The notes under the pieces are model-generated. The model was not told where the DNA came from, did no database searches, and saw only the letters and a list, made by a program, of their open reading frames with translations. A stretch of 13,801 bases of DNA. It comes from an uncultured Bordetella sp. Its GTDB lineage: Bacteria > Pseudomonadota > Gammaproteobacteria > Burkholderiales > Burkholderiaceae_B. The stretch is taken from contig CALGFL010000480.1 in assembly GCA_937881145.1 (NCBI GenBank), positions 1 through 13,801 of the forward strand, given 5' to 3'. The translations under genes and the position numbers were made by a program. Each line of letters begins with the position of its first letter. Within the stretch, counting starts at the first letter, position 1. This document shows, piece after piece, positions 1 to 13,801 of this stretch.

Positions 1-944
1 GCCGCCATGGTGTTGACGGCGTAGCCGTCGGGCGTGAGCGCGCTGGGGCCGAACACCGGCGGGCCTTGCAGGGCGCTGGCCGGCGACTTCTCGGGGTCGG
101 GCTTCAGGCGCGGGTCGGCCGGATCGTCGCTTTCCAGCGTGGCGATCAGCTTGCTGGCCGGCGAGTCGTGCACGTCGGGGTAGAACGGCGCGCGCGCGGC
201 CACCAGGTATTGGTGATTGAGGAAGGATCCGCCGAACGCCCCCTGGAAGAAGTTGTCGCACAGCACGAACTCCTGGGCCAGGTTCCACAGGCGCAGGTTG
301 TAGGCCGTATCGGCGTAATAGCCCATCGTCAGGCCGCCCGAATCGGCCCAGGCCGCAAACTTGTCGTTCCTGCCGCCGTTGATCTGCATCTGGTTCTGGT
401 AGAACACGTGCCACAGGTCGCGCGTGACCACGCCCTGCGGCAGGTATTCGCCCTGCGGGCCGCGCAGCGCGAAGGGGCCGTTGTACAGCCCCGTCATGTA
501 AGGCGCGTCTTCTTTGACGTGGTACTTGACGTGATTGACCGTCTGCTCGTGCGGCACCAGGCCCTTCCACACCGGCGGCAGCGTCGGCAGGGGTTTGCCG
601 TCGCGGTCCCGTTGCCGGTAGTCGTCGGCATTGAGCGCGGACAGCGGCTTTTCGACGCCGGGGAAGTTGCCGAACAGATTGTTGAAGCTGCGGTTCTCGG
701 CGTAGATCACCACAACGTGCTTCACATGCTTGCGCAAGGCATGCGTGAAGGCCGGGCTCGCAGGATGCGGCGCGGCGTTGCCGCCCCGGACCTTGCCATC
801 CTGCGCCGCCAGCGCATCGCCCGCCGCCACGCTGGCGCCCAGCGCGGCCATGCCGGTCAGGAAGCCGCGGCGCGTCGCGCGCGGGGAGGCCTGGTCGATT
901 TCGTCGCCGGCCTGTTCGTTCGTGTCTTGCGGCTTGTCGCTCAT
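1..944 (-). CDS. acpA: AcpA-type acid phosphatase / phosphoesterase, 5' part only
   Basis: This gene runs off the left edge; 314 codons are visible from ATG 944. Family members hydrolyse phosphomonoesters outside the cytoplasm. Residues 24-30 (TRRGFLT) form a twin-arginine motif, followed by a hydrophobic Ala-rich stretch and an ALA site near residues 44-46, so Tat export to the periplasm is likely. ENRSF at residues 83-87 is the metal/phosphate motif of the phospholipase C/AcpA superfamily. The following Asn in place of the Asp usual in phospholipase C (ENRSFNNLFG) suits the acid phosphatase branch. The GGSFLNHQ motif contains Ser240, the likely nucleophile by analogy with Francisella AcpA. 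A Shine-Dalgarno AGGTG lies about 6 bases before the ATG and fixes the start. It lies downstream of the cyo terminator, so it should have its own promoter in 945-1030, though I see no convincing -35/-10 there. The C-terminal half, and so completeness, cannot be judged. Confidence 0.85.
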   Translation of the reverse strand, partial: MSDKPQDTNEQAGDEIDQASPRATRRGFLTGMAALGASVAAGDALAAQDGKVRGGNAAPHPASPAFTHALRKHVKHVVVIYAENRSFNNLFGNFPGVEKPLSALNADDYRQRDRDGKPLPTLPPVWKGLVPHEQTVNHVKYHVKEDAPYMTGLYNGPFALRGPQGEYLPQGVVTRDLWHVFYQNQMQINGGRNDKFAAWADSGGLTMGYYADTAYNLRLWNLAQEFVLCDNFFQGAFGGSFLNHQYLVAARAPFYPDVHDSPASKLIATLESDDPADPRLKPDPEKSPASALQGPPVFGPSALTPDGYAVNTMA

Positions 945-1030
945 GGTTCACCTGGTAGAAAAAGTCCGAGCCCGACAGCTTAAAACCCCGGCGTGTCAGT
1001 TTTCTTGCATCCGGGGCATAGGTTCAGGGC

Positions 1031-1065
1031 AAAAAAAAAACCACATCCGGACGGATGTGGGTTTT
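1031..1065 (-). terminator. Rho-independent terminator of the cyo operon
   Basis: The arms CCACATCC (1041-1048) and GGATGTGG (1053-1060) close over GGAC. On the minus strand the stem is followed by ten T residues (A-run 1031-1040), about 40 bases after the cyoD stop. On the plus strand the stem is followed by five T residues, so it could work both ways, but no plus-strand gene reads into it. It separates cyoABCD from the phosphatase gene. The rest of 945-1100 holds only the phosphatase leader. Confidence 0.9.
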
Positions 1066-1100
1066 TCTACCGCGCCGCGGGCAAGCGCGGCAAGCAGGGA

Positions 1101-1448
1101 TTACATGCCGGGCATCATCAGGACGTTGGCGTTGTGCATCACCCACAGCGAACCGCCGACGGCAATGCCCAGGACCAGCGCGGTAAACATGAAGATCGCC
1201 GTGTTCTGCTGCTGCTCCGGATTGGCGCCCAGGTGCAGGAAGAAGCCCAGCTGGACCAGCAGCTGGATGACGGCGAACAGCGCCAGCCAGAGCTCGATCG
1301 AGTCGTGCGCCACCGCGCCGCTCAGCACGATCCAGAACGAGATCAGCGTAAGGACGATGGAAAGGACGAAGCCGACAGTGTAGGACTTCAGGGTGCCGTG
1401 GCTGCCATGACTGGCATGGTCGTGACCGGCCTCATGTGAGTTCGACAT
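1101..1448 (-). CDS. cyoD: Cytochrome bo3 ubiquinol oxidase subunit IV
   Basis: This 115-residue protein matches CyoD (about 109 residues in E. coli). It has a short His-rich cytoplasmic N-terminus followed by three membrane helices, at about residues 23-45, 51-72 and 84-105. The sequence GFVLSIVLTLISFW and the C-terminal SLWVMHNANVLMM are typical of the family. Subunit IV has no redox centre and helps assemble or stabilise the oxidase, chiefly around the CuB site of subunit I. The ATG at 1448 overlaps the cyoC TGA by one base (TGATG), so translation is probably coupled; GGAG lies about 9 bases upstream. It is the last gene of the operon, with no cyoE after it. Confidence 0.95.
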   Translation of the reverse strand: MSNSHEAGHDHASHGSHGTLKSYTVGFVLSIVLTLISFWIVLSGAVAHDSIELWLALFAVIQLLVQLGFFLHLGANPEQQQNTAIFMFTALVLGIAVGGSLWVMHNANVLMMPGM

Positions 1449-2062
1449 CAGAGGACTCCAAACAGATAGACGAAGGTGAACACGCAGATCCAGACGATGT
1501 CCAGGAAGTGCCAGAACAGGCTCAGGCAGGCCAGGCGGCGGCGGGTCATGCCGTCCAGGCCGAAGCGGCTGACCTGGTGCATCATGATCGCGATCCAGAT
1601 CAGACCGAAGGTCACGTGCAGGCCGTGGGTGCCGACCAGCGAGAAGTAGGCCGACAGGAAAGCGCTGCGATCGGGACCGCTGCCTTCGAGGATCAGGTGA
1701 TGGAATTCATAGACTTCCATGCCGATAAAGCCCAGGCCGAACAGGAAGGTGATGAACAGCCAGCCCATCACGCGGCTCTTGTTGCCGGCGTACAGGTTGA
1801 GCATGGCCACGCCGAACGTGAAGCTGGAGACCAGCAGCAGCATGGTCTCGACCAGCACGTAGTGCAGGTCGAAGATTTCCTTGCCGTTGGGGCCGCCCGC
1901 GTAGTTGTGGCCCAGGACGGCAAAGGTGGCGAACAGGCCTGAAAAGATCAGGCAGTCGCTCATCAGGTAGATCCAGAAACCGAGAGTGGTCTTGGATCCG
2001 TCGTCGTGGTGCTCGTGATGATGCGCCACGTCGTGCGGGAGAGTGGATACGGCTTGTGTCAT
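1448..2062 (-). CDS. cyoC: Cytochrome bo3 ubiquinol oxidase subunit III
   Basis: The 204-residue protein has the same length as E. coli CyoC and belongs to the COX3 family. After a His/Asp-rich N-terminus ([12 protein letters not shown]) there are five membrane helices. Family motifs include [34 protein letters not shown], the glutamate-containing [19 protein letters not shown] and the closing [18 protein letters not shown]. Subunit III binds no cofactor and stabilises subunit I and proton uptake. The ATG at 2062 lies three bases after the cyoB stop. Nothing in it looks damaged, in contrast to the active-site stretch of CyoB. Confidence 0.96.
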
Positions 2063-2065
2063 GGC

Positions 2066-4045
2066 TCAGGCCACCTGTTGCAGTTGACGATAACGCGCGT
2101 TTTCGATGGCCTCGACTTCCTTGGCCGGCACGTAGTAATCGGTGTTGCGGTTGTAGGAGCGGCGGACGAACGTGCCGACCATGCCCAGGAAGCCGACGAT
2201 GGCCAGCCACCAGATGTGCCAGATCAGCGCGAAACCCAGAATGGTGCCGAAGATGCCGCCGATGAAAACGCCGTCGGCGGTGTTGCGCGGCATGTGGATG
2301 TCTTCATAGTGCGTCGGCTGCTTGTAGGCGCGGCCGGCTTCCTTGTCTTCCCAGAACTGCTCCAGGTGATCGACATGGGGCACGTGCGCGAAGTTGTAGA
2401 ACGGCGCGGGCGAAGCGATCGACCATTCCAGCGAACGGCCGCCCCAGGGGTCGCCCGTGAGGTCCATGTTCTGCTTGCGGTCCTTGATGCTGACGGCGAT
2501 CTGCAGCACGAGGAAGAAAATGCCCGCGGCGATGATGACGGCGCCGAACCAGGCCACGATCAGCCAGGGATGCCATTCGGGATTGTCATAATGGTTCATG
2601 CGGCGCGTCATGCCCTTGAGGCCCACGACGTACAGGGGCAGGAAGGCCATCCAGAAGCCGACGAGCCAGCACCAGAAGGAAGCCTTGCCCAGGCGTTCGT
2701 TGAGCTTGAAGCCGAAGGCCTTGGGGAACCAGTACATCATCGCGGCGACATAGCCGAACAGCACGCCGCCGATGATCACGTTGTGGAAGTGCGCGACCAG
2801 GAACAGACTGTTGTGCAGCAGGAAGTCGGCCCCGGGGATGGCCAGCATCACGCCGGTCATGCCGCCGATCACGAAGGTCACGATGAAGCCGAGCGTCCAG
2901 TACATCGGCGCGGTCATCTCGATGCGGCCGCGGTACATGGTGAACAGCCAGTTGAAGATCTTCACGCCCGTGGGAATGGAGATGATCATCGTGGCGATGC
3001 CGAAGAAGGCGTTGACGTTGGCCCCCGAACCCATGGTGAAGAAGTGGTGCAGCCACACGACGAAGGACATCACGCCGATGCAGGCCGTGGCGTAGACCAT
3101 CGATTTGTAGCCGAACAGCGGCTTCTTCGAGAAGGTCGAGACGATTTCCGAGAACGCGCTGAACGCCGGCTGGACCTTGTGGGTCTCCGTGTTGTGCCCC
3201 CACACCCAGATCAGGTTGATGTACATCATGGCGTTGCCGCCGCCGCTATTGGTGAAGAAGTGCATGCCCAGGTAGCGGTCGGCCGTCAGCAGGGCCAGGG
3301 TGACCGCCAGGATGGGGAAGGCCGCCACGACCAGCACGTTGGTGACCAGCGCCGTCCAGGTGAACACGGGCATCTTCATCAGCGACATGCCGGGCGCGCG
3401 CATGCGCAGGATGGTCACGACGAAGTTGATGCCCGAAAGCGTCGTTCCCAAGCCTGATAGCTGCAATGCCCAGATGTAGTAGTCCACCCCGGTGTTCGGA
3501 CTGTATTTCAGCTCCGACAGCGGCGGATAGGCCAGCCAGCCGGTCGTGGCGAACTGGCCCACGAACAGCGACAGCATGACCAGCACCACACCCGTGCAGA
3601 ACAGCCAGAACGACAGCGAGTTCAGGAAGGGATAGGCCACGTCGCGGGCGCCGATCTGCAGCGGCACGACCACGTTGACCAGGCCCGTCATGAAGGGCAT
3701 CGCCATGAAGAAGATCATGATGACGCCGTGGGCGGTGAAGATCTGGTCGTAGTGGTGCGGCGGCAGAAAGCCCGCATGGTCGTTGTTGGCGATGGCCAAC
3801 TGCGAACGCATCATGATGGCGTCGGCGAAGCCGCGCAGCAGCATGACCAGCGCCACGACGATGTACATCACGCCGATGCGCTTGTGGTCGACCGTGGTGA
3901 ACCATTCGGTCCACAGGTACTTCCACTTGCCGAAGTAGGTGATGACGCTGAGCAGCAGGATGCCGCCGAGCGCCACCGCGGCGAAAGTCCCCATCACGAT
4001 AGGCTCGTGGTAGGGTACGGAATCAAGGGTAAGTTTGCCGAACAT
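2066..4045 (-). CDS. cyoB: Cytochrome bo3 ubiquinol oxidase subunit I, with replaced active-site PEVY motif
   Basis: This 659-residue heme-copper oxidase subunit I is collinear with E. coli CyoB (663). In that family it carries heme b, heme o3 and CuB, oxidises ubiquinol, reduces oxygen to water and pumps protons across the inner membrane. Retained are the quinone-site residues in [14 protein letters not shown] and PHHYDQIF, heme b ligand His106 (FTAHG), D-channel Asp in GARD, His284 (WGH), the CuB pair WLHHFF, K-channel Lys in PTGVKIFNW, heme ligands AHFHN and the GMTRR arginines. The oddity is at residues 285-292. Where E. coli has PEVYILIL, this protein reads NTETHKVQ, so Glu286 and Tyr288 are both Thr; GV at 296-297 is SA. 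Length and frame are unchanged. By known mutants of the E. coli enzyme, loss of either residue should abolish normal oxygen reduction. Start ATG 4045 has GGAG nearby, overlapping the cyoA stop. The family assignment is certain; activity is doubtful. Confidence 0.95.
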
Positions 4046-4049
4046 CGTA

Positions 4050-4961
4050 TTACTCCGCGCTGGCGACCAGATTCTGGGACGTGGGGGTGCAGACGGGTGA
4101 GGTCACACCGGCGATCTTGGCCATCTGGCTATTCAGGACATACTCGAACATGCTGGGAGGCGTGCTCGAGAAGTACGCGACAGGGTTGGCCTCGCTGGGC
4201 TTGGTGAGCGCCGCATAGGCTTGCTGGGTCAGCGGATTGTTGGCGGCGCGGACCTTGGCGACCCAGTCGTCGAAGCCCTGCTGCGTGGTGGCGATGGCCT
4301 TGAAGCGCATGCCCGAGAAGCCGGCGCCGCTGTAGTTGGCCGAGATACCGTCGTAGGTGCCGGCCACGTCCGCGATCAAGTGCAGCTGGGTCTGCATGCC
4401 GCTCATCGCGTAGACCTGGCTGCCCAGCTGCGGGATGAAGAAGGAGTTCATCACCGACTCCGAGGTGATGCGGAAATCCACCGGCGTGCCGACCGGGAAC
4501 GCGATCTGGTTCACCGTGGCGACGTTATAGTCGGGATAGATGAAGAGCCACTTCCAGTCCATCGCGACCACGTCGATCTTGATGGGCTTGACCTTGGATT
4601 CGAGCGGCTTGTAGGGGTCGAGTTCGTGCGTGCTCGTCCAGGTGAGCGTGGCCAGGATGGCGATGATGACGCAGGGAATCGCCCACACCACCACTTCGAT
4701 GGCGGTGGAGTGCGCCCAGCGCGGCGCGTAGGTCGCCTTGGTGTTGCCAGCACGGTAGCGCCAGGCGAACACGATGGTCATGATGATCACGGGGACGATC
4801 ACCAGCAGCATCAGGCCCGTGGCGATAAGCAGCAGGTTTTTCTCCTGCATGCCGACCCAGCCTTTGGGATCGAGGACTTCGAGGTGTTTACAGCCGCTGA
4901 GCAGCACGATGCTGCCTACCGCGAGCGTACGCGCGATGGTGGCAAGGGACGGGATTTTCAC
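4050..4961 (-). CDS. cyoA: Cytochrome bo3 ubiquinol oxidase subunit II (lipoprotein)
   Basis: The 303-residue protein has a lipoprotein signal with lipobox LLSGC (Cys24). Two membrane helices follow at about residues 43-67 and 87-108, then a periplasmic cupredoxin (COX2) domain from about residue 125. The conserved [10 protein letters not shown] and [14 protein letters not shown] motifs mark the quinol-oxidase branch. Where cytochrome c oxidases carry the CuA ligands, this protein has [11 protein letters not shown] (about 208-218), without the two cysteines. It therefore binds no copper, as expected for a quinol oxidase. The start is GTG at 4961, chosen because it gives a lipoprotein signal of normal length and has AAGG about 6 bases upstream. 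It is first in the operon, with the promoter region directly before it. The tail beyond about residue 280 shows no recognisable motif. Confidence 0.95.
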
Positions 4962-5035
4962 TGTCTACCTTCGTAGGTGTAGAGCCGCGGTTGCAGCGAC
5001 GACGGGATGATAACGCTCAAGCATGGCGGGGACGC

Positions 5036-5050
5036 GCGACACGATGTCGC
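5036..5050. promoter_or_regulatory. RegA/RegR-type box, promoter-proximal copy
   Basis: GCGACA and TGTCGC form a perfect inverted repeat around three bases. On the minus strand it reads GCGACATCGTGTCGC and fits the RegA-family pattern GCGRC-N5-GNCGC. It lies about 20 bases downstream of the predicted cyoA start point, inside the untranslated leader, where a bound regulator would be expected to repress. The arms are the same as in the copy at 5133-5147. The assignment to RegA is an inference from the pattern and the neighbouring regBA genes. Confidence 0.6.
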
Positions 5051-5059
5051 ACCCACGCC

Positions 5060-5088
5060 AAAGAACGCACCATAACAGTGCATTCTTT
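5060..5088. promoter_or_regulatory. Large interrupted palindrome over the cyoA -10 and start point
   Basis: On the plus strand, arm AAAGAACGCAC (5060-5070) and arm GTGCATTCTTT (5078-5088) are reverse complements at 10 of 11 positions, separated by CATAACA. The repeat covers part of the spacer, the whole -10 hexamer and the predicted start point. This is a typical position for a repressor operator. It is distinct in sequence from the RegA-type boxes, so a second regulator is implied. I do not recognise the binding protein. Confidence 0.5.
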
Positions 5089-5097
5089 TCATGTAAA
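5069..5097 (-). promoter_or_regulatory. Predicted sigma-70-type promoter of cyoABCD
   Basis: On the minus strand -35 TTTACA (5097-5092) is followed by a 17-base spacer and -10 TATGGT (5074-5069), five and four matches to consensus. The start point would be near 5062, giving a leader of about 100 bases before the cyoA GTG. This is the best promoter-like pair I see in the 4962-5206 gap. Confidence 0.6.
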
Positions 5098-5100
5098 CCT

Positions 5101-5109
5101 TGGTTACCA
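5101..5109. promoter_or_regulatory. Short palindrome centred near -43 of the cyoA promoter
   Basis: TGGTTACCA is a perfect 4+1+4 inverted repeat lying immediately upstream of the -35 hexamer. A site at this distance could hold an activator touching RNA polymerase. It is short, so chance is a real alternative, and I cannot name a cognate factor. Confidence 0.2.
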
Positions 5110-5129
5110 TTGGGGAAGTTCGAAATAAA

Positions 5130-5150
5130 GGTGCGACAAAATGTCGCACC
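5130..5150. promoter_or_regulatory. RegA/RegR-type box, promoter-distal copy; also hairpin after regA
   Basis: GGTGCGACA (5130-5138) and TGTCGCACC (5142-5150) are perfect 9-base arms around three bases. The core on the minus strand, GCGACATTTTGTCGC, fits the RegR-box consensus as I recall it (GNGRCRTTNNGNCGC) at every position. It is centred about 78 bases upstream of the predicted cyoA start, a suitable place for activation. The same sequence can fold as a hairpin. A T-rich run follows it on the plus strand (5152-5159), and TTTATTT follows on the minus strand about 57 bases after the regA stop. It may therefore also end the regBA transcript. Confidence 0.6.
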
Positions 5151-5206
5151 CTCTTTTTTGTAATGCCGCAACGGCGAGCCGCCCTTTCGGGTCTCACCCC
5201 CCGGCT

Positions 5207-5761
5207 TCAACCTTCGTCCGATGGGTCGCGCTCGGGGCCGGGCCGTTTGGCCAGCTTGCGCTGCAGCGAGCGCCGATGCATACCCAGCAGCCGTGCGGCG
5301 GCCGAGACGTTGCCGCCGGTCGCGGCCAGCGCTTGATGGATATGTTCCCATTCGAGGCGATGCAGGGGAATCATGGTTTCTTCGATGGCCACGTCGCGCG
5401 CCTCGCTCAAGCCCAGGGTGCGCAGGATCATGGGCACGGTGGCCGGCTTGGGCAGGTAGTCGTCGGCGCCGCGCTTGATGGCGTCGACCGCCGTGGCCAC
5501 GCTGGCGTAGCCGGTGACGAGCAGGATGCGCATGTCGGCGCGCAGTGCGCGCAGCGGCGCGATGAGCGCCAGGCCCGACTCTTCGCCCAGGCGCAGGTCC
5601 ACCAGCGCGAACGACGGCCGCAGCGCTTCGGCCAGGCTCAGCGCTTGGGCCGCGTTGCAGGCCAGATGCGTTTGCAGGCCATGGCGCGACAGGCCGCGCT
5701 GCAGCGTGCGCAGGTAGAGCTCGTCGTCGTCGATCAAAAGGCCGGGACCGGACAAAATCAC
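5207..5761 (-). CDS. regA: RegA/PrrA/RoxR-family redox response regulator
   Basis: This two-domain response regulator is 184 residues, the length I recall for Rhodobacter RegA. The receiver domain (residues about 6-120) shows the acidic patch DDD (11-13), phospho-acceptor Asp55 in LVDLRL, Thr83 in VTGY and Lys105 in PKP. A short linker leads to a Fis-type helix-turn-helix at about 149-172 (GGNVSAAARLLGMHRRSLQRKL), whose core is characteristic of the RegA/PrrA/ActR/RoxR group. The partner is the RegB-like kinase just upstream. The start is taken as GTG 5761, which overlaps the regB stop as GTGA. A longer reading to 6238 would lie wholly inside regB and is implausible. Family members act globally on respiration and redox balance, and two fitting DNA sites flank the cyo promoter 60-170 bases downstream. 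Confidence 0.92.
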   Translation of the reverse strand: MILSGPGLLIDDDELYLRTLQRGLSRHGLQTHLACNAAQALSLAEALRPSFALVDLRLGEESGLALIAPLRALRADMRILLVTGYASVATAVDAIKRGADDYLPKPATVPMILRTLGLSEARDVAIEETMIPLHRLEWEHIHQALAATGGNVSAAARLLGMHRRSLQRKLAKRPGPERDPSDEG

Positions 5762-7008
5762 GATGCGATTCCAGATTGCTTGTTCAAAAGAGGCAGGACG
5801 AAGCCGATGCGCGTGCCGCCGCCCTCGGCGGCGGTGGAGGTCATCTCGCCGCCCCACTGCTCGACGGTAGCGTGCGACAAGGCCAGGCCCACGCCCAGAC
5901 CCTGCGGCTTGCCGCTGTGGAACAGGCCCGAAGCCGGTAGCAGCGGCCGTTGCGGATCCATGCCGGCGCCGTAGTCGCGCACCTCGCCGCGCAGGACGCC
6001 GTTCTGATAGGACAAGTGTAATTCCACGCGCGGGTCGCCCGCCTCCTCGCCCGCGTCTGCTGCGTTGTTGAGCAAGGCCTGGAGCAGATGCGCGATGGCG
6101 GGCTCGACCCGCAAGGTGGGCGGCAGCTCGCCGGTGCGCTTGAGCTCCACGGCGGGCCGCACCAGAGTCCACTGGCCGACCACGCGCACCAGGTCGACCC
6201 GGCTGGGCACGGCCAGATTGCGGATGCGCTCGCGGCACAGGGCCAGCAGCTCGCCCAGCGTTTCGACGTCGTGGCGCATCTGCTCGTCGACAGGCTCATC
6301 GGCGCGGACCTGCTCGGCGATCTCGTCGACCAGGAGCGTCATGGTGGCCAGCGGCGTATTCAGTTCGTGCGCCATCGAGGCGGCGTGCGTGGCCAGGGCG
6401 ACGATGCCTTCGTTGCGCGTGAAGCGCTCGCGCAGCGCCGCCAGTTCGCGCTCGCGGCTGCGCAGGCCGGCCGCCAGGCGCGTGAGAAAGGAGCACACGA
6501 TGGCCACGGAAATCAGGAAGGTGACGGCCATGCCCCACAGCACCAGCGTGTGCTGGTCGTGCGGGCTGACGAGCGGCTGGCCGAAGACGGCCGACACGCC
6601 GTAGCCGGCCACGCTGGCCAGTGCCGCCAGCAGCGCCCAGAAACGCGGCAAGGCCAGCGCCCCCAGGGCGGTCAGCACCAGGAACATCATGCCGAAAGGA
6701 TTGCCGATGCCGCCGCTCCACGCCACCATCCAGGTGAGCGCCAGCATGTCGACCATCAGGTGCATGAAGGCGACGCCCGGCGCCAGCTCTTCGCTGTGCT
6801 GGGGCAGCGCGGTCGCGATCACGTTGAACAATATCAGCGCCAGCACGCCGCCCCATAGGGGCAGCGCAGGCAGCGACACATCCAGGAATTTGCCCGCCAC
6901 CAGGATGGCCGCGGCCTGGCCCGCGATGGCCACCCAGCGCAGGGTGCACAGCGTGCGAACGAACGAATGGGCCGCGCGCGGCGCGGACGGACGCTGGGAG
7001 TTGTCCAT
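5758..7008 (-). CDS. regB: RegB/PrrB/RoxS-family redox sensor histidine kinase
   Basis: The 416-residue membrane histidine kinase has about six membrane helices in residues 20-178. The motif GGIGNPF (99-105) matches the GGXXNPF signature through which RegB senses the ubiquinone pool. The H-box reads MAHELNTPLATM with phospho-accepting His214. Cys258 in LCRERI lies in the linker position of the redox-active cysteine of Rhodobacter RegB. The catalytic domain follows with N-box NNAADAG (314-320), G1 DYGAGM (345-350) and G2 GLGVGLALS (370-378). Known RegB kinases lower their activity when the quinone pool or the cysteine is oxidised. That this protein does the same is inferred from the retained residues. 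It starts 10 bases after the dioxygenase stop, with only a weak ribosome site (GAGCC), and overlaps regA by 4 bases, so coupled expression is likely. Confidence 0.94.
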   Translation of the reverse strand: MDNSQRPSAPRAAHSFVRTLCTLRWVAIAGQAAAILVAGKFLDVSLPALPLWGGVLALILFNVIATALPQHSEELAPGVAFMHLMVDMLALTWMVAWSGGIGNPFGMMFLVLTALGALALPRFWALLAALASVAGYGVSAVFGQPLVSPHDQHTLVLWGMAVTFLISVAIVCSFLTRLAAGLRSRERELAALRERFTRNEGIVALATHAASMAHELNTPLATMTLLVDEIAEQVRADEPVDEQMRHDVETLGELLALCRERIRNLAVPSRVDLVRVVGQWTLVRPAVELKRTGELPPTLRVEPAIAHLLQALLNNAADAGEEAGDPRVELHLSYQNGVLRGEVRDYGAGMDPQRPLLPASGLFHSGKPQGLGVGLALSHATVEQWGGEMTSTAAEGGGTRIGFVLPLLNKQSGIAS

Positions 7009-7018
7009 GTCGCGCGGC

Positions 7019-7789
7019 TCAGGCGCCGTGGGCGGGCGCCAGGGAAATGCCGGGCCGCGAGGCCGAGCGCGAACCCGGCAGCGGCTCGATGCGGTCGGGG
7101 TGATAGGTGTGTACCAGCGACAGCTTCACGGCATCGCTGGCGTTGCGCTGGGCCGCGTGCAGCGTGAGGCAGTGGAAGAACACCGCGTCGCCGGGTTCGA
7201 GTTCGGGGCACACTGCCCGCGCGATCCACTCCTGGTTACCGGGCATGTCGGGCCGGAAGAATTTTTTCTCGTCGAACTGCTCGGCCGCAAAGCCCGCAGT
7301 GTGCGAACCCGGCAGGAAAAAGAGGCCGCCGTTGTCCGCGGTTTCGCGTCCCAGGGCCAGCCAGCACGACACCAGTTCGGGCGCGCTGAACGACCAATAG
7401 CGGATGTCCTGATGCCAGCCCGTGAGGCTGCCGTAGTCGGGGTGCTTGGTCATTACACAGTTGTGATGCACGATGGACAGGACCGGCGCCTGACCGAAAT
7501 AGGCGGACAGCCATTGCGCAATGCGCGGCGAAACGGCCCATTGCGCGAACAGCGGATCGCGGCCGTAGGCATCGAGCAAGCGGCGCGCGGTGTGTCCGCC
7601 GGCCGCCTGGCGCGAAGCGGGCGCGCCGGGGTAGCGCAGGTCGGCTTCGTATTCGATGGGCTCGATGGCCTGGTCCAGATGGCGCTGCGCGACCCCGCGC
7701 AGCGCCGACACCATGGCGGCATCGGCAAAGCCGCGCACCACCACGAAACCTTGCTCGCGCAGAGAATCGATCTGGCTGGCTTGCGTCAT
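7019..7789 (-). CDS. Phytanoyl-CoA dioxygenase (PhyH)-family Fe(II)/2-oxoglutarate enzyme
   Basis: This 256-residue protein has the PhyH double-stranded beta-helix pattern. N-terminal EQGFVVVRGF is typical of the fold. WHQDIRYWS supplies His126 and Asp128, the first two iron ligands; ADNGGLFFLPGSH is the conserved middle motif; and LHAAQRNAS gives distal His211. Eleven residues later, where the 2-oxoglutarate-binding Arg is expected, there is Lys222. The substrate is unknown, and the family hydroxylates many small molecules. The start is ATG 7789, preceded by a strong GGGAGGAT ribosome site. A longer reading to 7858 would run into the permease and adds only low-complexity residues. The ATG overlaps the permease stop as ATGA, so the two are probably translated together. 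The enzyme needs oxygen and sits just before an oxygen/redox sensor operon, but a functional link is only suggested. Confidence 0.85.
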   Translation of the reverse strand: MTQASQIDSLREQGFVVVRGFADAAMVSALRGVAQRHLDQAIEPIEYEADLRYPGAPASRQAAGGHTARRLLDAYGRDPLFAQWAVSPRIAQWLSAYFGQAPVLSIVHHNCVMTKHPDYGSLTGWHQDIRYWSFSAPELVSCWLALGRETADNGGLFFLPGSHTAGFAAEQFDEKKFFRPDMPGNQEWIARAVCPELEPGDAVFFHCLTLHAAQRNASDAVKLSLVHTYHPDRIEPLPGSRSASRPGISLAPAHGA

Positions 7790-8877
7790 GGGGATCCTCC
7801 CAGTCTGGCCTGTTCCGCCTCGCGCTCTTCGCGCACCGTGCGCACCCATTCGCGCCACACCGACACCAGTAGCGCCATCAGCACCGGCCCGACGAAAAGG
7901 CCCACGATGCCCAGCGTCTTCACGCCGCCCACCAGGCCGAAGAAAGTCGGCAGGAAAGGCAGCTTGACCGGTCCGCCCACCAGGCGCGGCCGCAAGGTCT
8001 TGTCGACGATGAAGAGTTCGATCGCGCCCCAGGCGAGCAGGCCGATGCCGGCCGCGACGTGATTCGATCCGATCAGATAGAGCGATACCAGCGTGAACGA
8101 GGTCGGCGCGCCGCCCGGCACGAGCGCCATCACGCCGGTGATCACGGCCAGGAGCACGTGCGCCGGCACGCCGGCGATCCAGTAAGCCATGCCCAGCACC
8201 ACGCCTTCGCCCAATGCGATCAGGCCCATGCCCGTGACGGTGGCGCCGACGGTGGCCGGCACCATGCGCGAAAAGCGCTGCCAGCGCGCGGGCAGGATGC
8301 GTTCGCCCAGCAGGTCGACCTGGACCAGGATCTTCTGGCCGTCCTTATAGATGAAGAACAGCGTGAGCAGCATGAAGAAGAGCGCCAGGATCAACCGCGC
8401 CGCGTTGCCGGCGAAGCCCAGCACCATGCGATAGATGTTGCCGATGTGCTCGCCGCTGACGAGCTGCACCAGGTCGCCCAGCGCGTGCGGCTGGCCCAGA
8501 TAGGTGTTCCAGTACGAGGCGAGCTTCTCGCCCACCATCGGAATGGCGGGCATCCAGACCGGCACCGCGGCGCCGTAGCGATTGGTCGCCAGCATCCAGG
8601 TAAAGAGATGGCTGACTTCGCGAAAGGCATAGACCGAGGCCAGCGACAAAGGCACCACCAGCACCAGCAGCACCAGCAGCAACGCGATGACGGCGCCGAT
8701 GGTCGTGTTCTGGTTGCAGCGAGCCAGAAGGCGCCGATAGAACGGCCAGCTGGCCAGGCCGATGACCAGCGCCGCCAGCGCCGGCACCAGGAAATCGCTC
8801 AGGAAGTACGCCCCCGCCAGAAGCACCAGCAACAACAGCCAGCGGGCGATCAAAGAAGCGGGCAAGACAGGCGGCAT
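7786..8877 (-). CDS. AI-2E/PerM-family (UPF0118) inner-membrane transporter
   Basis: This 363-residue integral membrane protein has the AI-2E/PerM layout. Two helices lie at the N-terminus (IARWLLLLVLLAGAYFLSDF, then VPALAALVIGLASW), a third at about 58-80, then a large polar segment with amphipathic stretches, and four or five helices from about residue 160. ALFFMLLTLFFIYKDG and VMALVPGGAPTSF sit where this family has its conserved motifs; most members read VPxxGP at the latter. Members have been linked to export of autoinducer-2, to ion antiport and to other roles, so the substrate here is unknown. The start is ATG 8877. A TTG at 8928 would extend the frame, but it falls within the predicted promoter. 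It heads the likely four-gene unit with the dioxygenase and regBA. Confidence 0.85.
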   Translation of the reverse strand: MPPVLPASLIARWLLLLVLLAGAYFLSDFLVPALAALVIGLASWPFYRRLLARCNQNTTIGAVIALLLVLLVLVVPLSLASVYAFREVSHLFTWMLATNRYGAAVPVWMPAIPMVGEKLASYWNTYLGQPHALGDLVQLVSGEHIGNIYRMVLGFAGNAARLILALFFMLLTLFFIYKDGQKILVQVDLLGERILPARWQRFSRMVPATVGATVTGMGLIALGEGVVLGMAYWIAGVPAHVLLAVITGVMALVPGGAPTSFTLVSLYLIGSNHVAAGIGLLAWGAIELFIVDKTLRPRLVGGPVKLPFLPTFFGLVGGVKTLGIVGLFVGPVLMALLVSVWREWVRTVREEREAEQARLGGSP

Positions 8878-8899
8878 AGGGGCAGACAGCAAAGAGGCC

Positions 8900-8916
8900 G
8901 GCGGAAAAATTCCGCC
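8900..8916. promoter_or_regulatory. Perfect inverted repeat in the permease leader
   Basis: GGCGGAA and TTCCGCC (7-base arms, AAA between) lie just downstream of the predicted start point near 8920 and before the permease ATG. This suits an operator or a leader hairpin. With one bulged base the arms extend outwards (CCG/CGG). No cognate factor is recognised. Confidence 0.4.
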
Positions 8917-8926
8917 CGGACTGAGC

Positions 8927-8956
8927 AATATACGAGTTTTGGTCGCGCCGCGTCAG
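8927..8956 (-). promoter_or_regulatory. Predicted promoter of the permease-dioxygenase-regBA unit
   Basis: On the minus strand -35 CTGACG (8956-8951), an 18-base spacer and -10 TATATT (8932-8927) give four and five consensus matches. The predicted start near 8920 leaves a leader of about 43 bases before ATG 8877. The -35 hexamer lies inside the hairpin that follows the LysR gene. Confidence 0.45.
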
Positions 8957-8973
8957 GCCGGGCCTGACGCGGC
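8947..8973 (-). terminator. GC-rich hairpin at the end of the LysR gene
   Basis: GCCGCGTCAGGCC (8947-8959) and GGCCTGACGCGGC (8961-8973) are perfect 13-base arms around one base; a few inner bases must open to form the loop. The hairpin begins at the last base of the LysR TAG stop. No T-run follows on either strand, so intrinsic termination may be weak or need other factors. It could instead protect the 3' end or act on DNA near the next promoter. Confidence 0.5.
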
Positions 8974-10004
8974 TACACCAGGACTTCCGGCGGATCCACC
9001 GGCACGCGCTGGCGCGTGGCTTCCTGGGCCTGGGGGCTGATGCGGGCGCCCTGCGCCATGAGCCGCTTGCATTCGAGCATGGTCGGATCGTTCTCGTCGC
9101 GCCCGCTGAGCAGCGGGCAGCAGGCGAAGAGTTCGGCCAGCCAGTCGGAAAACGCGCGGATCTTGGGCGAGAGCTGGCGGTTCTGCAGATAGAGCAGCGA
9201 AATGGGCACCGCCGCGGGCCGGTATTCGGCCAGCACCTCGACCAGCTCGCCCTTTTGTATGTGCGGCAGCGCCGCGAAGCGCCCCGTCTGGATGATGCCG
9301 AAACCCTGCACGCCGCAGGCCAGATGGGCCGACCATTCGTTGACCGAAACGATGCCCGGCGGATCGACGTGCCGCAGCTCCCCGTCGACGAGGAAATCCC
9401 AGCCGTGATTGCGCCCCGGGCCCAGGAAGTAATGCACGGCCTGGTGCCGCTGCAGGTCGTCGATGGTGCGCGGCACGCCGTGACGCTCCAGATAGGCGGG
9501 CGAGGCGCAAGTGATGCGCTCGATGGCGCCGATGCGGCGCGCCACCAGGCTGGAATCTTCGAGTTCGCCGATGCGGATCACGCAATCGATCGCGTCTTGC
9601 ACCAGATCCACCTTGCGGTCCGACAGGCCGATGGCCAGCTCGATGTCGGGGTAGCGCTTATGAAAATCGCTCAGCGCGGGAATGAGCAGCAGCGTGCCGA
9701 TGCTGGGTTTGACGTCGATGCGCAAGCGCCCCTGCGGATGCGCCGACACGTCCTGCAGATAGGACTCGGTCTCCTCGACCTCGGCCAGGATGCGCACGCT
9801 GTGCTTGTAATAGGCCGCGCCGTCGGGAGTGAGGCTAAGCCGCCGCGTGGTGCGGTTGAGCAGGCGCACGCCCAGGTGCTTTTCGAGATTCTGGATGATG
9901 GTGGTGACGGTGGTGCGCGGCAGCACCAGCGCGTCGGCGGCGCGGGTGAAGCTGTTGGCCTCCACGACCCGGGCGAAGACCTGCATGGCTTGAAAGCGGT
10001 CCAT
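8973..10004 (-). CDS. LysR-type transcriptional regulator, divergent from an RND efflux operon
   Basis: The 343-residue protein has an N-terminal winged helix-turn-helix at about residues 1-60 (MDRFQAMQVFARVVEANSFT, RTTVTTIIQNLEKHLGVRLL, NRTTRRLSLTPDG). An effector-binding domain follows, from about 90 to 299. The sequence resembles the CrgA/DmlR-like branch of the family rather than a clear MexT. The start is ATG 10004, preceded by AGGAA; the frame could extend 18 codons further up but lacks a better site. The last 44 residues (300-343), rich in Gln, Arg and Pro, extend beyond the usual LysR length of about 300 and I recognise nothing in them. Divergent placement next to the efflux genes suggests it controls them and itself. 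The inducer is unknown. Confidence 0.88.
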   Translation of the reverse strand: MDRFQAMQVFARVVEANSFTRAADALVLPRTTVTTIIQNLEKHLGVRLLNRTTRRLSLTPDGAAYYKHSVRILAEVEETESYLQDVSAHPQGRLRIDVKPSIGTLLLIPALSDFHKRYPDIELAIGLSDRKVDLVQDAIDCVIRIGELEDSSLVARRIGAIERITCASPAYLERHGVPRTIDDLQRHQAVHYFLGPGRNHGWDFLVDGELRHVDPPGIVSVNEWSAHLACGVQGFGIIQTGRFAALPHIQKGELVEVLAEYRPAAVPISLLYLQNRQLSPKIRAFSDWLAELFACCPLLSGRDENDPTMLECKRLMAQGARISPQAQEATRQRVPVDPPEVLV

Positions 10005-10035
10005 GGCGTTTCCTGGCAAGAGCGGTATGGACGAA

Positions 10036-10065
10036 AGCATAAACCATAAATCGACCAATTGTTAG
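10036..10065 (-). promoter_or_regulatory. Possible promoter of the LysR gene
   Basis: On the minus strand -35 CTAACA (10065-10060), an 18-base spacer and -10 TATGCT (10041-10036) each match four of six consensus bases, about 30 bases before the start codon. The LysR-type repeat at 10041-10068 covers it, as expected for autoregulation. Confidence 0.35.
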
Positions 10066-10068
10066 TTT
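10041..10068. promoter_or_regulatory. Candidate LysR-regulator binding site
   Basis: AAACCATAAAT (10041-10051) and ATTGTTAGTTT (10058-10068) are imperfect inverted arms (8 of 11 pairs) around CGACCA. The AT-rich, interrupted, dyad form and the position between divergent genes are usual for LysR-family sites. It contains ATCGAC (10050-10055), complementary to the GTCGAT core I recall for MexT boxes, but the flanks do not fit that consensus. Confidence 0.35.
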
Positions 10069-10099
10069 TTACCGACTAGTGTTGCCGAAAACGGGGCAT

Positions 10100-10141
10100 T
10101 TATCCCGTCACGGAAAACACTCAGAATTCGGGTTATCCCGT
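10100..10141. repeat. Two direct copies of TTATCCCGT in the efflux promoter region
   Basis: TTATCCCGT occurs at 10100-10108 and 10133-10141, 33 bases apart or about three helical turns, so both lie on the same face of the DNA. Each copy also forms a small CGGG/CCCG dyad with upstream bases (10092-10107 and 10129-10140). They could be regulator contacts for the adaptor gene. I see no convincing -35/-10 pair for that gene in 10005-10255. Confidence 0.3.
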
Positions 10142-10151
10142 GGAACCCACC

Positions 10152-10169
10152 TCGCCGCTCCTGCGGCGA
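10152..10169 (+). other. Leader hairpin upstream of the efflux adaptor gene
   Basis: TCGCCGC and GCGGCGA pair perfectly around TCCT. No T-run follows directly. A weaker GGCC/GGCC stem at 10209-10221 is followed 9 bases later by six T residues (10231-10236), shortly before the ribosome site. Together they might allow attenuation, but the support is only structural. Confidence 0.25.
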
Positions 10170-10255
10170 CGTCTCGCGTGGCGGCAGATTCGGCCTCCCG
10201 CGCCCGCCGGCCATTTCGGCCTGATTCTCATTTTTTGCTTTCCCAAGGAAACGTC

Positions 10256-11410
10256 ATGACGATTTCTCGACCCCGCGCTTTTCGCTTTTCGGCCCTGGCC
10301 CTGGCCGTCGTGCTGGCCGCGGCGGGCGGCTATGCGGTCTTCGGCCCCGGCGCGCAGACGCCCGCCCACGCCCGGCAAACCGCGTCCGCCGCCCCTGTCG
10401 ACGTAGCCCCGGTCATCAACCGCCCCATCGTCGACTGGCAGCGCTATTCGGGCCGGCTCGAAGCCATCGACCGGGTCGATATCCGCCCCCTGGTATCGGG
10501 CACGCTGACCCAGGTGCACTTCAAGGACGGCGCGCTGGTCAAGAAGGGGGACCTGCTCTTCACCATCGACCCGCGCCCCTACGAAGCGCAAGTCGAGCGC
10601 GCCGAAGCCAGCGCCGCCTACACCGCGGCCGACCTGGCCCGGGCCAAGCGGCTGCTGGCTGAAAATGCCATCGCGCGCCGCGATTACGACCAGAAAGAGA
10701 GCGATGCCCGCGCCGCGGCGGCCGCTCTCAAGACGGCCCGCATCAACCTGGGCTACACGCGCATCGTCGCGCCCATCGACGGGCGGGTCTCGCGCGCCGA
10801 GGTCACGCAAGGCAATGTGGTGTCGGCCGGCGCTTCGTCCGCCGTGTTGACCACCATCGTGTCGGTGGCCCGCATGTACGCCTCGTTCAACGTGGACGAG
10901 CAGACCTTCCTGCGCTACGTGGATCGCAGCCGCGCGCAGGGCGCCCCCGTCCCGGTGCAGATGGGCCTGGCCGACGAAGAAGGCTATCCGCGCGAAGGCG
11001 TGGTGGCGTCGGTGGACAACCGGCTCGATCCCACGTCGGGCACGATCCGCGTGCGCGCCGTGTTCGACAACCGCGACGGCCTGATGCTGCCGGGCCTGTA
11101 CGCCCGGGTGCGCCTGGGCGGCAGCGCGCCGCACGATGCCGTGCTGGTCGACGAAAAAGCCATCGGCACCGACCAGGACAAGCGCTATGTGCTGGTGCTG
11201 GACAAGGCCAATCACGCCGATTACCGCGCCGTGCAGTTGGGCGCCAGCGTCGGCACGCTGCGCGTGGTGACGCACGGCCTGGCGGCCGGCGAGCGCATCA
11301 TCGTCGGCGGCCTGCAGCGCGTGCGTCCCGGCGACGTCGTCGCGCCCAACCTCGTGTCCATGGACGGCCAGGCCGCCCCCATCCAGACCGCTTCGGCAGG
11401 CCAGAACTAA
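10256..11410 (+). CDS. RND efflux membrane-fusion (adaptor) protein, MexE-like
   Basis: This 384-residue periplasmic adaptor joins an inner-membrane RND pump to an outer-membrane channel. It starts at ATG 10256, with AAGGAA 6 bases upstream. The N-terminus is a signal or anchor helix (residues 8-30) without a lipobox cysteine, so it is probably not lipidated. The order is typical. The first half of the lipoyl domain contains RLEAIDRVDIRPLVSGTL and FKDGALVKKGDLLFTIDPRP. An alpha-hairpin follows (about 115-165, RAKRLLAENAIARRDYDQ). The second lipoyl half is LGYTRIVAPIDGRVSRAEV, and beta-barrel and membrane-proximal domains follow (DNRLDPTSGTIRVRAVF, LMLPGLYARVRL). The family match is best with MexE/BpeE-type adaptors. 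The pump gene follows after 12 bases. Substrates, probably antimicrobials or other toxic organics, cannot be read from the sequence. Confidence 0.92.
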   Translation: MTISRPRAFRFSALALAVVLAAAGGYAVFGPGAQTPAHARQTASAAPVDVAPVINRPIVDWQRYSGRLEAIDRVDIRPLVSGTLTQVHFKDGALVKKGDLLFTIDPRPYEAQVERAEASAAYTAADLARAKRLLAENAIARRDYDQKESDARAAAAALKTARINLGYTRIVAPIDGRVSRAEVTQGNVVSAGASSAVLTTIVSVARMYASFNVDEQTFLRYVDRSRAQGAPVPVQMGLADEEGYPREGVVASVDNRLDPTSGTIRVRAVFDNRDGLMLPGLYARVRLGGSAPHDAVLVDEKAIGTDQDKRYVLVLDKANHADYRAVQLGASVGTLRVVTHGLAAGERIIVGGLQRVRPGDVVAPNLVSMDGQAAPIQTASAGQN

Positions 11411-11422
11411 GAACACACACCC

Positions 11423-13801
11423 ATGAATATCTCCAAGTTCTTCATCGATCGGCCCATCTTCGCGGGCGTGCTGTCGGTGCTGGTGCTGCTGGGAGGCCTG
11501 TTGGCCATGTTCCAGCTGCCCATCTCCGAATATCCGGAAGTCGTGCCGCCCTCGGTGGTGGTGCGGGCCCAATACCCCGGCGCGAACCCCAAGGTCATCG
11601 CCGAAACCGTGGCCTCGCCGCTGGAGCAGTCCATCAACGGCGTCGAGGACATGCTCTACATGCAGTCGCAGGCCAACAGCGACGGCTCTTTCGCGCTGAC
11701 GGTCTTCTTCCGCCTGGGCACTGATCCGGACAAGGCCCAGCAGCTTGTGCAGAACCGCGTCTCGCAAGCCCTGCCGCGCCTGCCCGAAGACGTGCAGCGC
11801 CTGGGCGTGACCACGGTCAAGAGTTCGCCCACGCTGACGCTGGTGGTGCACCTGATCTCGCCCGACAACCGCTACGACGCGACCTACCTGCGCAACTATG
11901 CGGTGCTCAACGTGAAAGACCGGCTGGCGCGCCTGAACGGCGTGGGCGAGGTTCAGGTCTGGGGCGCGGGCGACTACGCCATGCGCGTCTGGCTCGATCC
12001 CAACCGGGTCGCCCAGCGCGGCCTGACGGCCATGGACGTGGTCAACGCCATCCGCGAGCAGAACGTCCAGGTGGCCGCCGGCATCATCGGTGCATCGCCC
12101 ACCCAGGGCGACGTGCCCATGCAGTTCTCGGTGAACGCGCGCGGCCGCCTGACGACCGCGGAGGAATTCGGCCGCATCATTCTCAAGACCGCGCCCGACG
12201 GCGCGGTGACGCGCCTGTCCGACGTGGCCCGCATCAAACTCGACGCCCAGGACTACGCGCTGCGCTCGCTGCTGAACAACAAGCAGGCGGTGGCCATGGG
12301 CATCATGCAGGCGCCGGGCTCGAACGCGCTGCAGGTGTCGAGCCAGGTGCGCGAAACCATGGCCGAGCTGTCCAAGGACTTCCCGCCTTCGGTGCAATAC
12401 CGCATCGAATACGATCCGACGCAATTCGTGCGCGCCAGCATCGAAGCCGTCGTGCATACGCTGCTGGAGGCCATCGCGCTGGTGGTGCTGGTGGTGATCG
12501 TGTTCCTGCAGACCTGGCGCGCCTCGGTCATTCCGCTCCTGGCCGTGCCGATCTCCATCATCGGCACGTTCTCGCTGCTGCTGCTCTTTGGCTATTCCAT
12601 CAATGCGCTGTCGCTGTTCGGCATGGTGCTGGCCATCGGCATCGTGGTCGACGACGCCATCGTGGTGGTGGAAAACGTCGAGCGCAATATCGAGGCCGGA
12701 CTGTCGCCGCGCGAGGCCACCTACCGCGCCATGCGCGAAGTGAGCGGCCCCATCATCGCCATCGCGCTGACCCTGTGCGCGGTGTTCGTGCCGCTGGCCT
12801 TCATGACCGGCCTGTCGGGCCAGTTCTACAAGCAGTTCGCGGTGACCATCGCCATCTCGACGGTGATCTCGGCCTTCAATTCGCTGACGCTTTCGCCGGC
12901 CATGTCGGCCCTGCTGCTCAAGCCGCACAGCGAGCAGACCGACTGGCTGTCGCGCGCCATGCACAAGGTGCTGGGCCCCTTCTTTCACCTGTTCAACCGC
13001 GGCTTTGGCCGCGCCTCCGAGCGCTACGCCGACGGCGTGGGCGGCGTGCTGCGCCGCAAGGGCTCGTCGATGCTGGTATACGCCGTGCTGCTGGCGCTGA
13101 CCGCGGGCGTGGCCTACATCCTGCCCGGCGGCTTCATTCCCGCACAGGACAAGCAATACCTGGTGGCCTTCGCCCAGCTGCCCAACGGCGCCTCGCTCGA
13201 CCGCACCGACGCGGTGATCCGGCGCATGAGCGACATCGCCCTGCACGAGCCCGGCGTGAAAAGCGCCATCGCTTTCCCCGGCCTGTCGATCAACGGTTTC
13301 ACCAACAGTTCGAGCGCAGGCATCGTGTTCGTGTCGCTGGACGACTTCGACAAGCGCCGGGGCGCCGCCCTGTCGGCCAACGCCATCGCCATGCACCTGA
13401 ACCAGAAGTTCGCGGCCATCAAGGATTCGATCGTGGCCGTATTCCCGCCCCCGCCCATCCTGGGCCTGGGCACGCTGGGCGGCTTCAAGCTGCAGATCGA
13501 GGACCGCGGCGCGCAAGGCTATGCCGCGCTGGACAAGGCCACGCAAGCCTTCATCGCCAAAGCCCGGCAGACGCCCGAGCTGGGGCCCACGTTCTCGAAC
13601 TACCAGGTCAACGTGCCGCAGATCGACGTGGACCTGGACCGCGTCAAGGCCAAGCAGCTGGGCGTGCCGGTGACCGATGTGTTCGACACCATGCAGGTCT
13701 ATCTGGGCTCGGTGTACGTGAACGACTTCAACCGCTTCGGCCGCGTCTTCCAGGTGCGCGCCCAGGCCGATGCGCCGTTCCGCTCGCACCCCGACGACAT
13801 C
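11423..13801 (+). CDS. RND efflux pump (HAE-1 family, MexF-like), 3' end cut off
   Basis: The first 793 codons of an inner-membrane proton/drug antiporter are present; full length in the family is about 1050. It begins MNISKFFIDRPIFAGVLSVLV, the standard first helix. The porter domain includes LPISEYPEVVPPSVVV and YPGANPKVIAETVASPLEQ, and LLNNKQAVAMGIMQAPGSNAL precedes the second membrane block. Proton-relay Asp410 and Asp411 lie in GIVVDDAIVVVENVERN, and GGFIPAQDKQYL opens the second porter half. The relay Lys and Thr expected near residues 940-980 are outside the window. The alignment I recall is closest to MexF. ATG 11423 lies 12 bases after the adaptor stop and has little Shine-Dalgarno character, so translation may depend on coupling. 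An outer-membrane factor gene would be expected further right. Confidence 0.93.
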   Translation, partial: MNISKFFIDRPIFAGVLSVLVLLGGLLAMFQLPISEYPEVVPPSVVVRAQYPGANPKVIAETVASPLEQSINGVEDMLYMQSQANSDGSFALTVFFRLGTDPDKAQQLVQNRVSQALPRLPEDVQRLGVTTVKSSPTLTLVVHLISPDNRYDATYLRNYAVLNVKDRLARLNGVGEVQVWGAGDYAMRVWLDPNRVAQRGLTAMDVVNAIREQNVQVAAGIIGASPTQGDVPMQFSVNARGRLTTAEEFGRIILKTAPDGAVTRLSDVARIKLDAQDYALRSLLNNKQAVAMGIMQAPGSNALQVSSQVRETMAELSKDFPPSVQYRIEYDPTQFVRASIEAVVHTLLEAIALVVLVVIVFLQTWRASVIPLLAVPISIIGTFSLLLLFGYSINALSLFGMVLAIGIVVDDAIVVVENVERNIEAGLSPREATYRAMREVSGPIIAIALTLCAVFVPLAFMTGLSGQFYKQFAVTIAISTVISAFNSLTLSPAMSALLLKPHSEQTDWLSRAMHKVLGPFFHLFNRGFGRASERYADGVGGVLRRKGSSMLVYAVLLALTAGVAYILPGGFIPAQDKQYLVAFAQLPNGASLDRTDAVIRRMSDIALHEPGVKSAIAFPGLSINGFTNSSSAGIVFVSLDDFDKRRGAALSANAIAMHLNQKFAAIKDSIVAVFPPPPILGLGTLGGFKLQIEDRGAQGYAALDKATQAFIAKARQTPELGPTFSNYQVNVPQIDVDLDRVKAKQLGVPVTDVFDTMQVYLGSVYVNDFNRFGRVFQVRAQADAPFRSHPDDI

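Follow-up and report, generated by a model that had tools for sequence, protein, structure and literature searches.

In the cytochrome bo3 ubiquinol oxidase of E. coli, the CuB ligand His284 of subunit I (CyoB) is followed by the residues PEVYILIL, which include Glu286 and Tyr288, and without these two residues loss of oxidase activity is expected, as the effects of E. coli mutants indicate. According to one published account (PMC8509429), it is the crosslinked tyrosine that donates the proton when O-O bond cleavage begins. The motif is widespread: when 5.8 billion protein sequences were searched twice, the listed matches (120 of 302 and 120 of 8,000) comprised 229 different CyoB proteins, and among these listed matches HPEVY is present in 226. 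The three exceptions are P0024 (HPKVY), P0146 (HPEAY) and the protein that is the subject of this report.

The latter is encoded in a stretch of 13,801 nucleotides, here termed the window, which is the whole of one contig (C480) from the genome of an uncultured Bordetella sp., an assembly of 547 contigs and 3.02 Mb that is 77% complete. The window contains the cyo genes in the order cyoA-cyoB-cyoC-cyoD, and the features that matter here are as follows.

1101..1448, minus strand: cyoD, subunit IV (TIGR02847)
1448..2062, minus strand: cyoC, subunit III (TIGR02842)
2066..4045, minus strand: cyoB, open over its whole length and coding for the 659-residue subunit I of cytochrome bo3 ubiquinol oxidase (TIGR02843)
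3158..3160, minus strand: S296, the last of the eight private residues (215 of the 216 proteins aligned have Gly here)
3170..3193, minus strand: the patch; residues 285-292 are NTETHKVQ, next to the CuB ligand His284, where the sister protein P0007 has PEVYILVL
3197..3199, minus strand: G283 codon GGG, a silent difference and a rare codon (0.1 relative use) in the genes of the window
4050..4961, minus strand: cyoA, subunit II (TIGR01433)
5758..7008, minus strand: sensor kinase resembling RegB/PrrB, which scores under the curated cut-off of that model and is identical to P0230

All four Cyo proteins exceed the cut-offs of their TIGR family models (NCBIfam), CyoB with 1132.3 bits against a curated cut-off of 1020.35 for TIGR02843, and the operon is that of an ordinary bo3 quinol oxidase in a bacterium of the Bordetella type. 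CyoB retains histidines 106, 284, 333, 334, 419 and 421, which are all six metal ligands, together with D75, D135, K362 and H411, where the roles of these ten residues are assumed to be those generally given for CyoB. What is missing is the H-PEVY motif with Glu286 and Tyr288, in place of which the record reads NTET. Judged from its letters, the record should therefore not be classed with the active oxidases, while the protein is still CyoB by descent.

Several other features of the window are recorded here in their own right. Adjoining the cyo operon is a redox two-component pair (5207-7008, minus strand) that resembles RegB/RegA (PrrB/PrrA, ActS/ActR) and scores below the curated cut-offs. 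It is followed by a protein of the phytanoyl-CoA dioxygenase family (PhyH; 7019-7858, minus strand), whose frame overlaps that of a neighboring AI-2E family permease. A mexF-like RND transporter frame (11423-13801, plus strand), which presumably deserves that name from its position after a mexE-like gene, runs off the end of the contig, and an open frame of 1,222 codons (10133-13801, minus strand) lies antisense to these mexE/mexF-like efflux genes and is likely a by-product of high GC content.

The first-pass annotation reported the replacement of residues 285-292 by NTETHKVQ without a gap or frameshift in a gene open over 659 codons that keeps its metal ligands, and each of these observations is borne out: the letters, the six-frame reading and the E. 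coli alignment agree, the minus-strand frame from 4045 to 2066 is open, and the six histidines are present. Bases 3193-3170 encode residues 285-292, and the genome contig carries the same letters as the window at this site. PEVY does not occur in any of the six frames of 3134-3232, and E. coli CyoB aligns across the region without a gap, so a pair of compensating frameshifts does not account for the patch. A further reported difference, SA instead of GV at 296-297, holds for S296 only, as A297 is the commonest residue at its position (142 of 216 proteins).

Ordinary divergence does not account for the patch either. The nearest of the genomes compared, G013, is collinear with positions 1-13345 of the window in two blocks of 85.6% and 89.5% DNA identity, and among 3,864 windows of eight residues in 11 genes aligned between the two, the patch is the worst without a gap, its score of −54 being tied by one gapped window. 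Within the patch V291 is unchanged, such that seven of its residues are altered, and native V291, P293, A294 and F295 survive between altered residues, so that a single foreign block reaching residue 296 does not fit. Read in register, the codons of the eight altered residues differ from those of G013 at 15 bases, an approximate count given that G013 is another species, and the altered bases are spread over 36 bases. The stretch may begin slightly upstream: the codon for G283 is GGC or GGT in all 14 relatives compared and GGG in the window, and this is possibly the edge of the altered region. The mean hydropathy of residues 285-292 falls from +1.76 to −1.85 with the patch. Its eight codons are nonetheless all commonly used and all end in G or C, in a gene with 61.6% GC overall and 91.5% at third positions. 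By our own arithmetic, a random scramble at 61.6% GC would give eight such codons in only some 2% of cases, so pure noise is not favored. An attempt to read the patch as a diverged PEVY segment with one codon inserted and one deleted was rejected, as codons 285-290 then match the G013 codons at nine positions, a score that 16% of random codon sets reach.

A further comparison is with sister proteins. P0007, which is listed on six contigs, the longest of 228,362 bases, is the same as the CyoB of the window at 651 of 659 residues, and the differences are exactly residues 285-290, 292 and 296. V281, V291 and A294 of the window are common to both proteins. The kinase encoded at 5758-7008 is letter-for-letter the same as P0230 (120 of 954 matches listed), which comprises 20 member sequences on eight contigs, the longest again of 228,362 bases, and from this shared figure we infer that P0007 and P0230 lie on one contig. 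The agreement of both CyoB and the kinase with the sisters, whose contigs were compared through their proteins, indicates that the window and the sister contigs come from the same organism or from very near relatives. Eight more close sisters (P0002-P0006, P0008, P0009 and P0011; 94-98%) carry PEVY. When 216 of the 229 proteins are aligned (13 with lengths outside 640-700 residues were left out), the residues private to the window are exactly the same eight, all within 285-296. The window also differs from 14 relatives at 30 positions where these all agree (one of them a gap column), of which eight are these residues and the other 22 are shared with P0007 and hence reflect divergence of the lineage. 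Among the sequences read, the change is thus private to the window: it does not extend beyond residues 285-296, and the contigs coding for the otherwise identical protein lack it. The claim of the first-pass annotation that CyoB has lost the motif is accordingly untrue of the lineage, and the sister comparison that it named as a means of refuting a real loss has yielded PEVY.

More distant relatives show the same. A CyoB search of 61 genomes, including the window's own, found a match in 53, and of 30 loci fetched, one being the window itself, 27 of the 29 from relatives read WGHPEVY; in the other two (L029 and L030) the locus search did not find the pattern W.WGH. A plasmid search returned 209 records, and the annotated ones among the 20 listed are cyoB. 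Other proteins with the patch were also sought, and among the listed matches none of the 229 CyoB proteins has it except the window's own. The search around the patch, which reaches proteins of about 360-1150 residues, gave 85 bits for the window's own protein and 59 for the next match, and it is unlikely from this gap that lower-scoring matches beyond those listed hold the patch.

Taken together, these results make it likely that the eight odd residues stem from a local error confined to one 13.8-kb contig. Such an error would have arisen by misassembly, by a bad consensus at low coverage or by some other corruption of the record, and the living organism would most likely encode a normal H-PEVY motif. 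In favor of an error are the normal motif in P0007 on six contigs, the identity of the kinase to a protein whose longest contig has the same length, the presence of PEVY in the close sisters and in nearly all retrieved proteins and relative loci, the lack of pseudogene-type decay elsewhere in CyoB, the failure to find an exact donor, and the source itself, a single short contig of a fragmentary genome. Against it are the preserved frame and length, the common G/C-ending codons of the patch, and two observations given below, namely the private residues of other proteins and the absence of a second such patch in a real gene. Three sister proteins from short contigs each have one private residue, N256 in P0003 (4,076 bases), T470 in P0004 (6,710 bases) and S472 in P0008 (2,482 bases), at positions otherwise the same in 215 of the 216 proteins. 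This gives a weak hint of errors in the short contigs of this organism, but private residues occur in other proteins of the same alignment as well (for example 11 in P0012 and 21 in P0013) and are no mark of error by themselves. The frequency of such patches was surveyed by comparing 57 sequences of the window's own genome (the window included; 366,550 bases) with 1.22 Mb of G013, where 17 of the 57 gave alignments that were kept. In 73,501 aligned residues over all frames of these 17 contigs there are two windows with mismatches at eight of eight positions and conserved flanks. One is the cyoB patch, the only one in a real gene, and the other lies in the frame antisense to the mexE-like gene and is presumably non-coding. 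Since the portion of the genome compared shows no further patch of this kind in a real gene, the assembly is not riddled with them, and a survey that finds one neither proves nor disproves an error.

The main competitor is a real and very recent null allele, in which a clustered mutation of cyoB in one strain has abolished the bo3 oxidase and respiration uses cytochrome bd or other routes. The preserved reading frame and ordinary codons would suit such an allele, as would the fall in hydropathy and the loss of both Glu286 and Tyr288. The genome itself contains two partial matches to cytochrome bd subunit I above the cut-off (on C286 and C36) and a third below it (C331), while no other match to a heme-copper oxidase family was found in the 77% of it that is represented; with cytochrome bd-type genes present, a cyoB null allele need not be lethal. 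Yet the allele would require clustered changes over 36 bases while CyoB and the kinase otherwise match the sister proteins in full, searches nearby and elsewhere found no template for it, and it is found on one contig compared with six for P0007. We regard it as improbable, and between an error and a very recent mutation the choice of an error, itself an inference, is made with good confidence.

A template was sought because the patch might have been copied from another gene by conversion or in a chimera. With up to three mismatches allowed, the 24 bases of the patch occur once in the window and nowhere else in its own genome, no repeat in 2900-3500 involves it, and no k-mer of at least nine bases from 3155-3199 recurs within 1.5 kb, with one 11-mer at the edge of this segment recurring at 7382. 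Exact matches were absent from GTDB contigs for a degenerate nine-residue pattern and a 22-base core, and from viral contigs for a 20-base core, in collections that possibly leave out the window's own and near genomes. With up to two mismatches, 399 genomes of the order (the window's own included, drawn from a larger group) gave one match besides the window, which is the one point for a copied patch: a gene of G136 for a choice-of-anchor O protein agrees at 22 of 24 bases and in frame (NTETRKGQ). It is treated here as a presumed chance match. It has two mismatches and, by eye, no flanking similarity to CyoB; the choice-of-anchor O protein had no match in 41 genomes (the window's own and 40 relatives) in a search run without a positive control. 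With native residues also retained between the altered ones, a conversion or chimera is very unlikely. Still less probable is an oxidase variant that functions without the tyrosine and the glutamate but with another chemistry, for instance NO reduction. The retained histidine ligands, H411, K362, D135 and D75 would be compatible with it, but the patch is in no other protein read, its nine-residue pattern is absent from the GTDB contigs, a hydrophobic stretch has given way to polar and charged residues, and sister contigs encode the otherwise same protein with the normal motif. By score the sequence belongs to CyoB, and its six NCBIfam matches include no family of NO reductases, so that nothing in them points to NorB. 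A lineage with changed oxidase chemistry is therefore not supported, and a cyoB allele segregating in one strain, with the proton-gate glutamate and the crosslinked tyrosine both replaced, the metal site kept and another chemistry in place, is scarcely credible. Of the three readings offered by the first-pass annotation, namely an inactive oxidase, changed chemistry, and a local error or conversion patch, a local error is the one favored, an inactive oxidase would correspond to the improbable null allele, changed chemistry lacks support, and for a conversion patch no exact donor was found. The interpretation of that annotation is thus supported in part.

The original observation was hence right and its significance was not: the bo3 oxidase gene of the window is an ordinary one that probably carries a local error of sequence. 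Were the loss true, the active site of bo3 would be disabled in a natural strain, a matter of modest interest. The case is a caution that where a genome is fragmented, the apparent loss of a catalytic motif on a single contig may disappear once other contigs are seen to encode the same protein.

In comparison with known systems, the CyoB of the window is like that of E. coli (1FFT; TIGR02843), with which it aligns over residues 1-655, gap-free in the region of the patch, and with which it shares the cyoABCD operon, the six histidine metal ligands, D135 and K362. It differs from the E. coli protein at residues 285-290, 292 and 296, including Glu286 and Tyr288, in addition to ordinary divergence. 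The CyoB of G013 is 82% identical and its locus is collinear over 1-13345, whereas G013 reads PEVYILIL and differs elsewhere as expected between species. The closest likeness is to P0007, from which the protein of the window is distinguished by the eight patch residues only.
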